Below are positions 5,588 through 18,174 of a stretch of DNA of 35,426 bases, piece after piece. A program made the translations under genes and the position numbers. Source of the stretch: Erysipelotrichaceae bacterium (GTDB lineage: Bacteria; Bacillota_I; Bacilli_A; Erysipelotrichales; Coprobacillaceae); assembly GCA_021201315.1 (NCBI GenBank), contig JAJQFG010000092.1:1-35426 (forward strand). Reading direction: 5' to 3'. Numbering within the stretch: position 1 is the first letter of the stretch; every line of letters starts with the position of its first letter. Below the pieces are notes generated by a model. It ran no database searches, was not told the DNA's origin, and was given only the letters and a program-made list of their open reading frames with translations.

Positions 5588-5635
5588 TGAAAATATTGAA
5601 ATTTGTTTAGTAAAATCCTTAAGTTTTTTATGATT

Positions 5636-6565
5636 TTAGGCTATAAATAACACAACAAGAGTATATACAATCAAGCTAACTATAATAAATAATAATACAA
5701 ATGCACTCGTAAATGCACCATCATCTTCATTTTCATACAATGGCTCAATAACTGGCATTAAACCAAATCCTGTAGGTGCTGTAAAATAAAGAATAGGAGC
5801 CATCATATATGTTTTATCTGCCATTAAATCAGGAAATAATATAAAGAATCCTACAATAATAGCTACACCAGCTACTAATTTCATTCCTATTAATTTTAAG
5901 ATAGGTCCTAAAGTATTCTTATCAATATTCAAATCATATCCTAAACAGAATAATATCATTGATACAATAGGTGTTGTTACTTGTGAAAATGTTGCAGTGA
6001 TTGTATCACCTAAAGGTGAAGCTAATAAATAACTATAAACACCAGTTAAATTTAAAGCTAATCCTATAATAACTGCAATCACAAATGAATTAGAAAAAAT
6101 ACTTTTAACCAATTCTTTAGTAGAAGTTGCACTAGATGATTCTTTAGCAATTAATATTGGAAAAATAATAAAACAAGTAACAGTTCCTGCAATATCATAA
6201 ATAACAGTATTACTAGAAGTTCCTACAATTGATAAATATAATGGTAAAGCTACATTTTCACCCTCTACCACTGTCAATAAATAAGGTGAAAATTTTACAT
6301 ATTTCTTTGAAGCTAGTGGTGCTACAATTTTACCATATACAAGGGCTATCATATAAGCTACAAAAACATAAGCAATAATCTTAATTTGTGTCATATCAAT
6401 CGTTGCTGATAATATCAAATTTAATACAAGAATTGGAAACAAAATATTAAATACAATAGTATTAGCTCCAGCCTTTTGTTCTGGAATAATTCATCCTTTA
6501 AGTTTACATATAAAACCTAATGCCAGCATAAAAAATACTGGAAAAAGTGTTGATAAAGCTACCAT
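5636..6565 (-). pseudogene. AEC-family (auxin efflux carrier-like) transporter with an in-frame TGA
   Basis: The intact frame runs from the ATG at 6565 (AGAGGA upstream) to the TAA at 5636-5638: 309 codons, the usual AEC/malate-permease length. A single TGA (6491-6493) interrupts it at codon 25, in the context CKLKG-stop-IIPEQKAG. AEC relatives commonly have Trp or another hydrophobic residue here (KKGWITPEQ-like), so TGA may stand for Trp. The rest is about ten hydrophobic helices. Family members move small organic anions or amino acids across the inner membrane; this substrate is unknown. If TGA is a stop, a TTG at 6442 would have to reinitiate and would lose the first helix. It has its own promoter at 6593-6621 and lies between rpmH and dnaA. 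Confidence 0.8.
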
Positions 6566-6592
6566 AATTTTAATCCTCTTTTTTTCTTCTAT

Positions 6593-6621
6593 ATTATCTA
6601 TAAAATATATATAAAAATCAA
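6593..6621 (-). promoter_or_regulatory. Promoter of the AEC transporter gene
   Basis: On the minus strand, -35 TTGATT (6616-6621), a 17-bp AT-only spacer and -10 GATAAT (6593-6598), ending about 28 bp before the ATG at 6565. This placement supports the longer start and argues that the codons before the TGA belong to the gene. Confidence 0.6.
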
Positions 6622-6660
6622 ATACTTTTAAAACATATTTATATATGCTTTTTTATTATA

Positions 6661-10403: not shown

Positions 10404-10437
10404 AATATAAATAAGGAAGAAATAAGGAGGTTTTAAG

Positions 10438-11926
<1,489 letters not shown>

Positions 11927-12115: not shown

Positions 12116-14890
12116 TTATAGTAATTTTCCATAATGTTTCACATATGCTTTTTTAATACTAGTTGCTAAGCACATGTAAAGGAATATACATGGAATCAAA
12201 TATAAGAAATAATATGCAGGTGGTGCTGTAAATCCTAGAACTGAACCTAAAGGTGAAAATGGTATAATAGTTAATATAGCTATACCAGTACATGTTAGTA
12301 ATGTTAATGGTGCTGAAGCATGACTTTGAATAAATGGTAATTTAGGTGTTCTTATCATATGGATAACCAATGTTTGGCTCCACATTGATTCAATAAACCA
12401 GCCTGCTTGGAATAAGCCCATATATAATGCTTGAATTTGAACAAGCGTATCGCCACTAAAATGATTAGCAAGATCATTATATAAAATACCATGTGATACA
12501 GCCGTTGGACATATAATGAAATACATAAAGATATAAGTTGTAAAATCAAAGATTGAACTGGTTGATCCAAGCCAAATCATAAAACTTGAAATACCTGATG
12601 TATCCCAATCTTGTGGTTCTTTAATAAATTCTTCATCAACATTATCCCAAGGTATTGCAATACATGATATATCATAAATAAGATTCAGTAAAATTAAATG
12701 GATACTCATCATTGATAGAAAAGGTAAAAGGATAGATGCCGCTAATATAGAAAACATATTGTCAAAATTAGAAGATGCTGTCATTTTAATATATTTAATC
12801 ATATTTGCAAAAATTTTTCTACCTTCAATAATTCCTTGTTCCAATACCATTAAATCTTTTTCCAATAAAATAATATCAGCAGATTCTTTAGTAATATCAA
12901 CAGCACTATCAACAGATATACCAACATCAGCATTTGTCATAGCTGCTGCATCGTTAATACCATCACCCATAAATCCAACAACATGACCACCTTGACGTAA
13001 GGCTGAAACAACACGTACTTTTTGTTCAGGTGTCAATTTAGCAAATACATCTGTCTTTTCTGCTTTAATTGCTAATTCTTCATCATTCATATTTTCTAAA
13101 TCACTACCTAATAACATATTTTTGACTTCAAAACCAACTTGTTTACAAATAGTTCTGGTAACTTTTTCATTATCTCCTGTTAATATTTTAGTCGTAACAC
13201 CATAATTCTTTAAAGTTGAAATAGCTTGGGCTGTAGATTCTTTTGGTGGATCTAGAAAAGCCAAATAACCCATTAATACCATATCTGATTCATCTTTAAC
13301 ACTAAAAGATTCAACTGGAGATGGGTTGCTTTTTTGAGCTAAAGCTAATACACGGAAACCTTTATCATTCAATTCATCAACTGTTTTTAATATTTCTTGT
13401 TCTAATGAGTAAGATAATAATTCAACATGACCTTCATATTCAACATACTTACAAATAGAAAGCATTTCTTCGACAGCACCTTTGGTAACCATTTGAGTTT
13501 TACCTTCTTTATCTTGTACAACAGTTGTCAAACGACGACGCTGAAAATCGAAAGGTATTTCATCTACTTTAATATAGTTTTCTGATAAATCTAATAATTC
13601 TGGATTTTCTTCCTCTTCTTCCTCAGTTTTATTGATAATAGCCAAATCCATCAGATTCTTATAACCTGTTTGAAAATAACTATTCAAATAAGCATGTCTT
13701 AATACACGTGTATCATCTTCACCATTTACATTTAAATGATATTCTAAAACAACCTTATCTTGTGTCAATGTACCTGTTTTATCTGTACAAAGAATATCTA
13801 TTGCACCAAAATTCTGAATAGAATTAAGATTTTTAACAATAGTACTCTTTTTACTCATTGTAACAGCACCTTTAGACAAACAAGTTGTGACAATCATTGG
13901 TAACATTTCAGGTGTCAATCCAACAGCAATAGATATACCATATAAGAATGCTTGTAACCAATCATGTTTTGTAAAACCATTAATAATAAATACTAATGGC
14001 ACCATAACCATCATAAAACGAATAAGTACCCATGAAACATCATTAACACCTTTAGTAAAACTTGTCTCTACTGGTTCATCTGATAAATGAGAAGCCATCA
14101 TACCAAACATTGTATGGTCTCCTACTCTTATAACAATGCCTTTACCACTACCAGATACAACATTACTGCCCATAAAAGCAATATTTGAATAATCAGTTAA
14201 TGAAGTTTGTTGAACAATAATTGTTGAATTTATTTTTTTAATAGGTTCACTTTCACCAGTTAAACTAGCCTGACTTACATATAAATCATTAGTTTCTATC
14301 AAACGTACATCACCTGGTACCATATTTCCTGTAGATAAATGAATAATATCACCAACAACGAGATCATCTAGGGGTATTTCCATTTGTTTTGATTCACGTG
14401 TGACTGTGCAAGTTGTTGTAATCATATCAAGTAAAGCATCTACAGCTCTACCACTTCTTGATTCCTGCACAAATCTCATAATACCAGAAATTAATACCAT
14501 TGTTGATATAATAACTACTGTTAAACAATCAAAATTTTCTTTGGTATTACCAAACATTTCAAAATATGGAAATAGCATGTCTATAATAGATGAAACTATA
14601 GCTAAACAAAATAGAATAAGTGTAAATGGATTTACAAATGCATCCACTAGTCTTTCATTTAATGTCTTTTTTGAGCCATCATCTACTACATTAGTTCCAT
14701 ATAAATCTGAACTTTTTTTGACATCATCTTCATTTAAACCACATAAAGATGTATGAAACTTCTTAAATAGTTCTTCAATAGAACTCATTGCAGCAAAATG
14801 TAATAAATCATTTTGTTCATCATGTATTAAAGAAATTTGAATTTCTTTTTGAATTTCTTCTCTATTCATTTTTTTAGATTTTTTATTCAT
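12116..14890 (-). CDS. mgtA: MgtA-type magnesium-transporting P-type ATPase (first copy)
   Basis: A 924-residue P3B-type ATPase, the family that imports Mg2+ driven by ATP. The N-terminal cation-ATPase domain (about 30-100) is followed by the actuator motif TGES (211-214), the phosphorylated aspartate in DKTGTLT (Asp370) and the hinge [10 protein letters not shown], with about ten membrane helices. [11 protein letters not shown] (about 324-334) is the conserved helix-4 motif of MgtA. The ATG follows GAAGGGAGG. It is the second P-type ATPase on this strand, with a 54-residue membrane protein directly downstream and a terminator and repeat pair upstream. No M-box riboswitch fits in the short leader. 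Confidence 0.93.
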
Positions 14891-14918
14891 TTTAAAAACC
14901 TCCCTTCATTTAAAGTAT

Positions 14919-14956
14919 AAAAAAAACACAAGATTTATCACATGAATGAAATCTTG
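14919..14956 (-). terminator. Terminator after the winged-helix regulator gene, before mgtA
   Basis: On the minus strand an 8-bp stem (CAAGATTT / AAATCTTG) with a 12-nt loop is followed by eight Ts. It lies after the regulator's corrected stop and before the first mgtA copy. One stem arm overlaps a TCTTGC box, so termination and operator binding may interact. Confidence 0.7.
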
Positions 14957-14968
14957 CATTTTTCTTGC
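14952..14968 (-). promoter_or_regulatory. Tandem 11-bp repeat upstream of mgtA copy 1 (putative operator)
   Basis: Two TCTTGC boxes (plus-strand reading) at 14952-14957 and 14963-14968, exactly 11 bp apart, each followed by A and a T-rich tract. The same arrangement precedes the second MgtA-like gene. OmpR/PhoB-type winged-helix proteins typically bind such direct repeats spaced by one helical turn. A TATACT -10-like element lies downstream at 14914-14919. Confidence 0.55.
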
Positions 14969-14981
14969 ATTTTGGTAAGAA

Positions 14982-15462
14982 TTATTGATCATTGAATTTA
15001 TAACCAATGCCCCATATTGTAATTATATATTCTGGATTATCAGGATGTGATTCGATTTTTTTTACGTAATTTTCTAATAAATGCCATGATATTACTATCA
15101 TCTAATAAATAATCATTTTTCCATACAGCTTTATATATTTGTTCTTTAGTAAATACTTCTCCTTGATTTTGAGCAAGAAAGTAAAGTATATCAAATTCTT
15201 TAGGAGTTAAATTAATTTCAATGTTATTTCTTAGCACTTTTCTATATCTATAATTAATGATTAAATCACGATATTGGATAATATCATTATAAGATATATT
15301 TTGGTCATTCATTTCTAACATAAGGGAATGCATAGAACCATTCATCATATCTTCTAAACCAGAAGTAAAATCTTTGACATTAATAGTAGAATAAATCAAT
15401 TGTTCATGAATTTCTTTGATAGTCGTTGAGTCTAAACTTACAAATCCAATTTTCTTTTTCAT
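14982..15462 (-). CDS. Winged-helix (OmpR/PhoB-type) regulator, frameshifted near its end
   Basis: The first 140 codons read to a TCC-TGA at 15040. A run of eight As (minus strand) is one too long; with seven, the frame continues through ESHPDNPEYIITIWGIGYKF to the TAA at 14982-14984 (about 160 residues). That tail is the classical last beta-hairpin of an OmpR-family DNA-binding domain, so I call the gene to 14982. The winged helix (about 75-160) has LTPKEFDILYFLAQNQGEVFT. The N-terminal about 70 residues lack the receiver aspartate and fit no domain I recognise. The start follows TAAGGAGG, overlapping the stop of the upstream ATPase. Position and the shared TCTTGC repeats suggest it controls the two Mg-ATPase genes. 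Uncorrected, it lacks the wing. Confidence 0.75.
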
Positions 15463-15476
15463 ATAAATTCTCCTCC

Positions 15477-18110
15477 TTAAAGTAATTCGTGATTTTTATG
15501 AATATACCATGATTTTGATAATGTAACTGTTAATAAATATAATATAACAATTATGATAAGAAATGTAAAATAAGATAAAGGCATAGCAGTTAGATCTAAT
15601 AAATGACCAACACTTGTAAAAGTAAGAATAGTATAAAATAATATACCAATAGTTGTTACTATAATTACTGGATTAGATGGCTTACTTTCAATAAATGGTA
15701 TTTTTTGTGTTCTTAATAAATGGAGTATGAGTATTTGTGACCACATAGATTCTAAAAACCATCCTGTTTGAAATAGTGATATAAAATAAGTTTGTGTTTG
15801 TATATCAATAGCATTATAATGACCACCACAAATCATAGGACAAAATATAAAATAGAGAAATAAGAATGTTATAATGTCAAATAATGAACTAATTGGTCCA
15901 AAGAATCTCATGAATTTTCCTAAATGACGATCACCCCATTCTAATGGATCATTGAGTAATTCTTTATCAACATGATCCCATGGTAGTATTAAACATAAAA
16001 CATCATATAATAAATTTAATAGTAGTAGTTGTATAGCTGTCATTGGTAAGAATGGCAAAAATATACTTGCTAGGACTATAGAAAAAATATTACCAAAATT
16101 GGATGAGGCTGTTATTTTTATATATTTTGACATATTTGAAAAAGCTTTTCTACCTTCAATAATACCTTCTTCTAATACATTTAAATCTTTTCTTAATAAA
16201 ATAACATCAGCACTTTCTTTAATAGCTTCAACAGCACTATCAACTGATATGCCCACATCGGCTTTTAAAGTTGCTGGTAAATCATTCATGCCATCTCCTA
16301 AATATTCAACCGTATGACCATTAGTTTTTAATGATTTTACAATTTTTTCTTTTTGTTTTGGTGATAATTCTACAAATACATGTGTATTTTCTATAGTCGT
16401 TAAGTAATTATCAGAATTTAATTGATCTAATTGAGAACCAGTTAATACATGATTAGTATCTATATTGAGTCTTTGACAAATAGATAGTGTAACATTTTTT
16501 TGATCACCTGTTAATACACGAATATTAATATGCATTTGTTGAAGTTTTTCAATCGCAAGACTTGCTGTTTGTTTAGGTGCATCAAAGAATACTATATAAC
16601 CTAATAATATAAGATTATTTTCATCTTCTTTTTGAATGATTTGTTTTTCTAATGGTTTATAAGCAATTGCTATAACTTTCATACCATCTTCTAGCATTTC
16701 ATCTACAATATTGTGAACATTAATATATATATTATCTGTTATAGGTATTTGTTGATGATTGTGTTCAATATAGGAACAATGTTGACATATTTCATCGATA
16801 CTTCCTTTGAATATGAGTAATGTTTGGTGATTATTTTGAATGAGTACGGAAGCAAATTTTCTATCGTAATCAAAGGGTAATTCATCTATTTTTATATAAG
16901 AAGATGTTAATGAATGAAAATATTCTTTCATATTATTCATATCTTGGCACTTTAGAATAGCTTTATCTATATGATTATTGACACCTGTATGAAAGTAGCT
17001 ATTTAAATAAGCATAGGATAATACTTTCTGACTTTCATTTCCTAATATATCTAAATAATATTCTAATGTTAATTGATTTTGAGTTAGTGTTCCTGTTTTA
17101 TCCACACATAGTATATCCATACTACCAAAGCCTTGCATGGCATTGATATTTTTTATAATTGTTTCTTTTTGTTGCATGGAAGAAGATCCTTTTGCTAAGC
17201 ATGCATTAATGACCATTGGTAGTATTTCAGGCATCAAACCTACTGCTACTGATAAAGCAAATAAAAATGCTGATAATAGATTTTCTTTCGTTAAAGTACA
17301 AGCAATAAAAACAATGGGAACTAATACAATCATAAAACGTATAAGCACTAAAGATATTGCATGGGCACCTTGATCAAAATAATTATCTTCTTTATAATCA
17401 TTTTCATTCATACTACCATATACACTCTCTTTACCAACAACTAAAACAATTTCCTCACCTTTACCACCAATAATTATTGATCCCATAAAGGCAATATTAC
17501 TATACTGATTAAATGAATGAATATTTTGAATAAGTATTGTTTCCTTATTTTTTTCTACTATGGTACTTTCACCCGTTAACATGGATTGGGAAACAAATAA
17601 ATCTTGAGCTTTAGTAATTCTTATATCAGCAGGTATGTTATCTCCTGCAAAAAAACGTATATAGTCACCTACAACTATTTCATCAGATAATATTTCTTGC
17701 CATTGATTATCACGTTTAACACTAACAGTTGTTTGTATCATATGTGTTAATTTATCCATCACTTTTTTTGCTTGTGTTTCTTGTATATAACGAATAATAT
17801 CACTTAAAATAAGTATAGTCATTATAATAATAAAGGTTGTCATATTATGACTATAATTAGATGATAATAAGACATCAGTAATAAATGATACAATAGCTAA
17901 TATAAATAATATAATGGAAAATGGATTAATAAATGCATGTTTTAAACGATATTTTAATTTATCTTTTCTTTGTATAATCATTTCATTACTGCCATATTGT
18001 TTTTTACTTATTTCCACTTGTTTTTGATTATATCCTTTATCAGTTATATGAAAATCTTGAAATAATGTATCAATACTTTGATGAGCGTAATGATTAATAC
18101 GTTGATTCAT
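15477..18110 (-). CDS. MgtA-like P-type ATPase (second copy)
   Basis: An 877-residue paralogue of the neighbouring MgtA, collinear with it along its length. It has the actuator TGES, DKTGTLT after CV, an MgtA-like GLMPEILPMVI segment and about ten helices. The hinge reads GDGMNDLPATL instead of the usual GDGINDAPAL type. I start at the ATG at 18110, spaced well from AGAGGTG; a GTG three codons upstream lies inside that site. It is first in the operon and its stop codon is part of the regulator's ribosome binding site. Mg2+ import is the likely role, but another divalent cation or a specialised function cannot be excluded. Confidence 0.9.
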   Translation of the reverse strand: MNQRINHYAHQSIDTLFQDFHITDKGYNQKQVEISKKQYGSNEMIIQRKDKLKYRLKHAFINPFSIILFILAIVSFITDVLLSSNYSHNMTTFIIIMTILILSDIIRYIQETQAKKVMDKLTHMIQTTVSVKRDNQWQEILSDEIVVGDYIRFFAGDNIPADIRITKAQDLFVSQSMLTGESTIVEKNKETILIQNIHSFNQYSNIAFMGSIIIGGKGEEIVLVVGKESVYGSMNENDYKEDNYFDQGAHAISLVLIRFMIVLVPIVFIACTLTKENLLSAFLFALSVAVGLMPEILPMVINACLAKGSSSMQQKETIIKNINAMQGFGSMDILCVDKTGTLTQNQLTLEYYLDILGNESQKVLSYAYLNSYFHTGVNNHIDKAILKCQDMNNMKEYFHSLTSSYIKIDELPFDYDRKFASVLIQNNHQTLLIFKGSIDEICQHCSYIEHNHQQIPITDNIYINVHNIVDEMLEDGMKVIAIAYKPLEKQIIQKEDENNLILLGYIVFFDAPKQTASLAIEKLQQMHINIRVLTGDQKNVTLSICQRLNIDTNHVLTGSQLDQLNSDNYLTTIENTHVFVELSPKQKEKIVKSLKTNGHTVEYLGDGMNDLPATLKADVGISVDSAVEAIKESADVILLRKDLNVLEEGIIEGRKAFSNMSKYIKITASSNFGNIFSIVLASIFLPFLPMTAIQLLLLNLLYDVLCLILPWDHVDKELLNDPLEWGDRHLGKFMRFFGPISSLFDIITFLFLYFIFCPMICGGHYNAIDIQTQTYFISLFQTGWFLESMWSQILILHLLRTQKIPFIESKPSNPVIIVTTIGILFYTILTFTSVGHLLDLTAMPLSYFTFLIIIVILYLLTVTLSKSWYIHKNHELL

Positions 18111-18129
18111 AGTGTTCACCTCTTGCTGT

Positions 18130-18174
18130 ATTATAACATGTTATATATAATTTAAATTCTTGCTTTTTTCTTGC
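18130..18174 (-). promoter_or_regulatory. Promoter and tandem repeat upstream of the second MgtA-like gene
   Basis: On the minus strand a perfect -10 TATAAT (18130-18135) has no good -35. The expected -35 place (AATTTA) abuts two TCTTGC boxes at 18158-18163 and 18169-18174, 11 bp apart. A weak -35 with direct repeats at its upstream edge is the usual design for activation by PhoB/OmpR-type regulators. The same repeat pair precedes the other Mg-ATPase gene. Confidence 0.6.

Follow-up and report, generated by a model that had tools for sequence, protein, structure and literature searches.

The DNA analysed here, a stretch of 35,426 nucleotides from an Erysipelotrichaceae bacterium (the window), carries two copies of a direct repeat, TCTTGC-N5-TCTTGC, each of which is likely to be the activator site of the locus's own receiver-less OmpR/PhoB-type regulator, which would bind there and drive a self-activated Mg2+-uptake regulon. 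The location of the pair is unique in the genome, its sequence is conserved in relatives, its distance to the promoter is helically phased, it co-occurs and is co-absent with the ATPases, and the DNA-binding domain encoded beside it has the predicted fold of this regulator type. The interpretation given in a preliminary description of the sequence, in which such a regulator acts on these boxes, is well supported by the comparative evidence.

The exact pattern occurs twice in the window and, in the whole 2.99-Mb genome, only at the same two sites, both of them just upstream of MgtA-type ATPase genes. About 0.12 exact pairs would be expected in 2.99 Mb from the base composition, compared with the two observed, and a reversed control pattern gave no match across the same genome. 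The pairs are both exact and share spacing and orientation, as had been reported; the observation is correct and not due to chance. Both ATPase genes lie on the minus strand, and in their direction of reading each pair becomes GCAAGA-N5-GCAAGA, operator A1 lying 62 bp before the ATG of ATPase1 (14890) and operator A2 48 bp before that of ATPase2 (18110). The filler between the boxes, described earlier as T-rich, is A-rich in gene orientation, and the sister species G002 has ATTTC in the same site, which indicates that an A-rich filler is not itself essential to the operator.

Both flanking proteins score above the curated cut-off of TIGR01524 (610.75 bits) and are members of this family of Mg2+ P-type ATPases, the ion and the direction of transport being predicted. 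The start of ATPase2 is placed at the ATG at 18110, after GAGGTG, instead of the GTG at 18119 given in the ORF list. No histidine kinase gene adjoins the regulator gene, whose neighbours are the two ATPases and, in some relatives, MgtC. The ATPase1 gene of G002 (G002:C48:9212-11882, locus L036) is split over three frames by assembly errors or decay. Elsewhere in the window, a transporter gene on the minus strand (5636-6652) is broken by a TGA, its frame otherwise continuing, and a 6-phospho-beta-glucosidase-like GH1 gene (10415-11926) has two in-frame TGA codons at conserved-looking Trp positions. Recoding of UGA as Trp, suggested by these codons and by the small number of genes ending in TGA, was rejected: a full-length RF2 and tRNA-Trp(CCA) are present, so the GH1 codons are more likely nonsense mutations and the gene probably a pseudogene.

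Table 1. Features of the Mg2+ ATPase locus in window coordinates
Feature	Position	Strand	Basis
ATPase1, MgtA-type Mg2+ P-type ATPase	12116..14890	-	TIGR01524, 1072.8 bits
ATPase1 -10 (TATACT), 32 nt from operator	14914..14919	-	
Terminator-like hairpin and U-tract, 5' arm formed by operator A1	14919..14966	-	RNA fold -17.2 kcal/mol, z -4.69
Operator A1, GCAAGA-AAAAT-GCAAGA direct repeat, regulator/ATPase1 intergene	14952..14968	-	Exact pattern; A1 alignment
Rest of the winged helix (ESHPDNPEYIITIWGIGYKFNDQ), shifted frame	14982..15055	-	Conserved in orthologues
Regulator ORF as sequenced, 140 aa: N-terminal module of about 60 aa and OmpR/PhoB-type winged helix, cut before the wing	15040..15462	-	PF00486
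A8 tract, site of the frame shift (A7 in G001)	15056..15063	-	Comparison with G001
ATPase2, MgtA-type Mg2+ P-type ATPase	15477..18110	-	TIGR01524, 886.7 bits
Extended -10 of ATPase2 (TGTTATAAT), 22 nt downstream of operator; no recognisable -35; site centre about -42.5	18130..18138	-	
Operator A2, GCAAGA-AAAAA-GCAAGA direct repeat, 11-bp period, upstream of ATPase2	18158..18174	-	Exact pattern; kept in relatives

The winged-helix regulator said to be encoded between the ATPases is indeed of the OmpR/PhoB type, both by sequence and by predicted fold. The PF00486 (Trans_reg_C winged helix) match of the window ORF is partial, covering profile positions 3-56 of 77, and the family is present in all 24 of the orthologues examined. 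The ORF is this short, and lacks the wing, owing to a frame shift at the A8 tract; in the close relative G001 the frame stays open through the complete wing, and intact orthologues of 159-165 aa are found in G002 (full-length and 85% identical), G021 and others. The shift could stem from a sequencing or assembly error, from recent decay or from transcriptional slippage on the A-tract. An AlphaFold2 model built with the 24 orthologues has a mean pLDDT of 82.5, and its C-terminal 100 residues match the DNA-binding domains of VicR/YycF (Z about 19, rmsd 1.0-1.2 Å, 36-37% identity), as well as PhoB bound to pho-box DNA. The protein probably binds DNA as response regulators do. The N-terminal 60 residues are predicted to form two helices and, modelled alone, gave no PDB match at E<=0.001, which does not prove a new fold. 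That the regulator would lack a receiver aspartate was borne out, since in the orthologues the third predicted strand ends in Glu in most cases, in Gln, Ser or Gly in the others and never in Asp; the claim was nevertheless an understatement, no Pfam receiver being present in any of the 24. Without a recognisable receiver or phosphorylatable Asp, the protein is by this defining feature not a response regulator. The idea that Mg2+ binds directly to what remains of a receiver site, an Asp after strand 1 and the Glu ending strand 3, was attractive but was set aside; neither residue is invariant, which weakens the case for sensing at such a site.

The operator pair is conserved beside the same regulator gene in about 25 related bacterial genomes, and the order ATPase2-regulator-operator-ATPase1 recurs in Erysipelotrichaceae, Lachnospiraceae, Oscillospiraceae and Intestinibacter. 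Both sites are present in G002; in G001 one is exact and the other has a single change, at the same two places. In G021, which belongs to another genus, the regulator is 58% identical overall and identical through the recognition helix, and GTAAGAAAAAAGCAAGC and GCAAGGAAATCGCAAGA stand at the two homologous positions. G003, of the same genus as the window species, lacks the site, any ATPase above the TIGR01524 cut-off and any close regulator. Among GTDB genomes a scan yielded about 30 full-length orthologues with 52-66% identity, in hosts that include Lachnospiraceae, Oscillospiraceae, Anaerostipes, Blautia, Flavonifractor and Intestinibacter bartlettii. Their loci keep the order ATPase2-regulator-ATPase1, with an MgtC gene (PF02308) before ATPase1 in some, and in most of them GCAAGRAAAWNGCAAGR is found ahead of ATPase2, after the regulator or at both places; in regulator-bearing genomes GCAAGRAAAWNGCAAGR is nearly confined to this locus. 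There are exceptions: L073, L074 and L075 encode the regulator and yet have no site near ATPase2, and none is found there in L093, G233, G235 and G238, of which L093, G233 and G238 retain the site on the ATPase1 side. The pattern is found upstream of orthologous ATPases in many genera, and it is not scattered over the genomes searched, namely this one, 18 that bear the regulator and 315 of the window's order; the outcome named in the preliminary description as refuting its interpretation thus did not arise. The degenerate form RCAAGRAAAWNRCAAGR has 40 matches in the 18 regulator-bearing genomes, about 35 of them at Mg-locus genes (reversed control, 7), and by our tally 44 matches in the 315 genomes (control, 35), which places its background at about 0.1 per genome and its enrichment in genomes with the regulator at about 20-fold over that of the order.

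Some individual loci depart from this arrangement. In G331 there are sites before MgtC-ATPase1, before a CDF transporter and before an ATPase1 remnant, the operator before the cation-efflux CDF transporter (PF01545) and the remnant lying in locus L190 (G331:C1, 2654-3842); these extra sites are a possible extension of the regulon. In L194 (G041:C77, 878-3637) the operator precedes an ATPase2 frame that is followed directly by the C-terminal part of ATPase1, the regulator being missing on the reading of the ORFs, an arrangement that looks like a recombination deletion. Short winged-helix genes in G005, G035 and G021:C127 were not counted as the same system, as they lie beside ABC-transporter or mobile-element-like genes and have no operator sites, and degenerate matches in G031, G193 and G234 do not precede Mg ATPases and look like chance.

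The geometry of the promoters favours activation, as had been suggested. At the 18158 site, where a missing -35 had been described, the best -35 match is 2/6, below the random mean of 2.6/6, and the extended -10 follows downstream of the operator. In a hand-picked set of 32 promoters, 18 of them before ATPase2, the -35 matches average 2.6 of 6, compared with 2.5 for random sequence, and the extended -10 (TGn) is present in all 18 ATPase2 promoters. The ATPase1 promoter has a weak -35-like GTGATA at 14936-14941, 16 nt before TATACT, and CATGTGATT, conserved in the A1 promoters, may include a weak -35. Across the relatives, nearly every promoter has 21/22 or 31/32 nt between the operator repeat and its -10 hexamer, and this spacing holds for -10 hexamers as different as TATAAT, TATGAT, TACAAT, TATACT and TAGAAT, so that the operator centre would fall at about -42 or about -52. 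It is the combination of a helical-phase-locked spacing with a missing -35 that points to an activator. The same operator and regulator could also act by repression, the protein being a repressor or a Mg2+-bound co-repressor that is released at low Mg2+, and in the 21/22-nt class the site does overlap the -35 region, so that a repressor bound there could stand in the way of the polymerase. We regard repression as unlikely, however, because promoters with a -35 no better than chance would be served poorly by unaided polymerase, and because a -10 spacing locked at two values one helical turn apart is needed by an activator only.

The 14952 copy has a second property: its hairpin, followed by a U-tract, has the form of a predicted intrinsic terminator and is also strong in relatives (L083, z -5.8; L095, z -7.1). 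Neither the hairpin nor the frame shift in the regulator ORF figures in the preliminary description. This hairpin probably ends the ATPase2-regulator transcript, and with the operator A1 forming the stem of that terminator, ATPase1 would depend on its own promoter. A block, TTCTTRCCAAA, is conserved directly 5' of the A1 operator, at -16 to -3 of the repeat (window 14971-14984), and its TTCTTRCC part could pair with box 1 in RNA. The hairpin strength here and in relatives (z -4.7 to -7.1) and this potential pairing are what could be expected if the repeats were not a protein site at all and instead formed the arms of a terminator or attenuator governing read-through into the ATPases. That reading is very improbable: the 18158 copy forms no structure on folding and lies upstream of the -10, so that it is not transcribed from that promoter, and in an alignment of 23 A1 sites the two direct boxes are fixed, averaging 1.8 bits per column, whereas the inverted arm drifts at 0.9 bits. 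The direct repeat is therefore constrained as a DNA site and not merely as part of a hairpin. There is equally little to recommend the view that the repeats bind another winged-helix response regulator, the neighbouring protein being a bystander or no longer functional. In its favour one could cite the frame shift in the window assembly, roughly a dozen matches to related winged-helix proteins in G000 and the many PhoB-type proteins of the genome. Against it, the degenerate pattern is enriched in genomes with the adjacent type of regulator, and G003, which has other such regulators and lacks that of the locus, has no site.

Control by RNA was also surveyed. The M-box riboswitch is a common control of Mg2+ transporters in Firmicutes. 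A search for the M-box (RF00380, ykoK) was negative in all four genomes of the genus and also in 14 loci from relatives, where no Rfam family other than tRNAs was detected, and the window contains no Rfam family. The proposal of a riboswitch-free regulon therefore stands for the window and its genus; it may not extend to those relatives in which a short ORF starting M-D-x-D, with a good ribosome-binding site, lies between the A1 promoter and ATPase1, as in Intestinibacter (MDPDGKRKNNIATR, then a stop). Among the Clostridial relatives such ORFs were seen in L082/L083 (about 5613-5657) and also in L068, L069, L072, L084, L093 and L095. In the window species the leader is too short to hold one. 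Folding of the leaders was not consistently significant.

Several known systems resemble parts of this one. The hexamer-N5-hexamer direct repeat near the -35 is shared with the boxes of PhoB (pho box), PhoP and WalR/YycF, which are bound head to tail, and GCAAGR-N5-GCAAGR, phased to the -10 with a period of about 11 bp, fits an OmpR/PhoB-type target, binding being predicted. The regulator's DNA-binding domain is closest to that of VicR/YycF; in those systems, however, a kinase phosphorylates a receiver, whereas here there is neither, and the box sequence differs. HP1043 (HsrA) of Helicobacter pylori and CosR of Campylobacter are likewise orphan OmpR/PhoB-type proteins that work without phosphorylation, but their receiver, though degenerate, is still full-length and their targets are many genes, while the window regulator has no recognisable receiver, a two-promoter Mg2+ locus as its target and the box GCAAGR. 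ChxR of Chlamydia trachomatis, an atypical OmpR/PhoB-type protein, is described in the passage of PMC12632262 that cites it as phosphorylation-independent and as binding direct repeats. ChxR retains a dimerising receiver fold, in contrast to the N-terminal module of about 60 aa without a fold match found here. The enterobacterial PhoPQ-mgtA/mgtCB system also controls an MgtA-type ATPase, and MgtC is present at the locus in relatives of the window species; the M-D-x-D leader ORF that several relatives have before ATPase1 resembles MgtL, a Mg2+-sensing leader peptide with the motif EPDP. The window system differs in having no PhoQ or receiver, an unrelated operator and no leader ORF. No description of the regulator was found in the open-access literature searched. 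What would be new is a regulator of Mg2+ uptake that is PhoB-type, receiver-less and apparently one-component.

In the mechanism that we propose, two regulator subunits would bind head to tail on one face of the DNA, with one helical turn between them, near -42 or -52, and would bring RNA polymerase to promoters in which an extended or ordinary -10 is otherwise the only element. The genes activated by the regulator would thus be ATPase1 and those of the regulator's own operon (ATPase2-regulator), joined in relatives by MgtC or the cation-efflux transporter, and activation would most likely occur when Mg2+ is scarce; Mg2+ as the signal is something we infer solely from the annotation of the ATPases and MgtC. 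As the protein has no receiver domain, the signal must come by a route other than phosphorylation, and it might be conveyed by the conserved, unrecognised 60-residue N-terminal module, by a partner or by the level of the regulator itself. More tentatively, and with considerable doubt, the module might be a new sensor of intracellular Mg2+ or of transporter state fused to a PhoB-type domain, which would make the protein a one-component transcriptional Mg2+ sensor of Gram-positive gut bacteria, stacked in some species with an MgtL-like leader peptide.

What is known of Mg2+ control in bacteria concerns chiefly PhoPQ, M-box RNA and leaders of the MgtL type. The locus poses the question of how Mg2+ is sensed by a protein that is PhoB-like but has no receiver, and its operator is precise and cheaply testable. 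In many gut Firmicutes, high-affinity uptake of Mg2+ appears to be governed by a winged-helix regulator that has no receiver, is dedicated to this purpose and has a defined operator of 17 bp.
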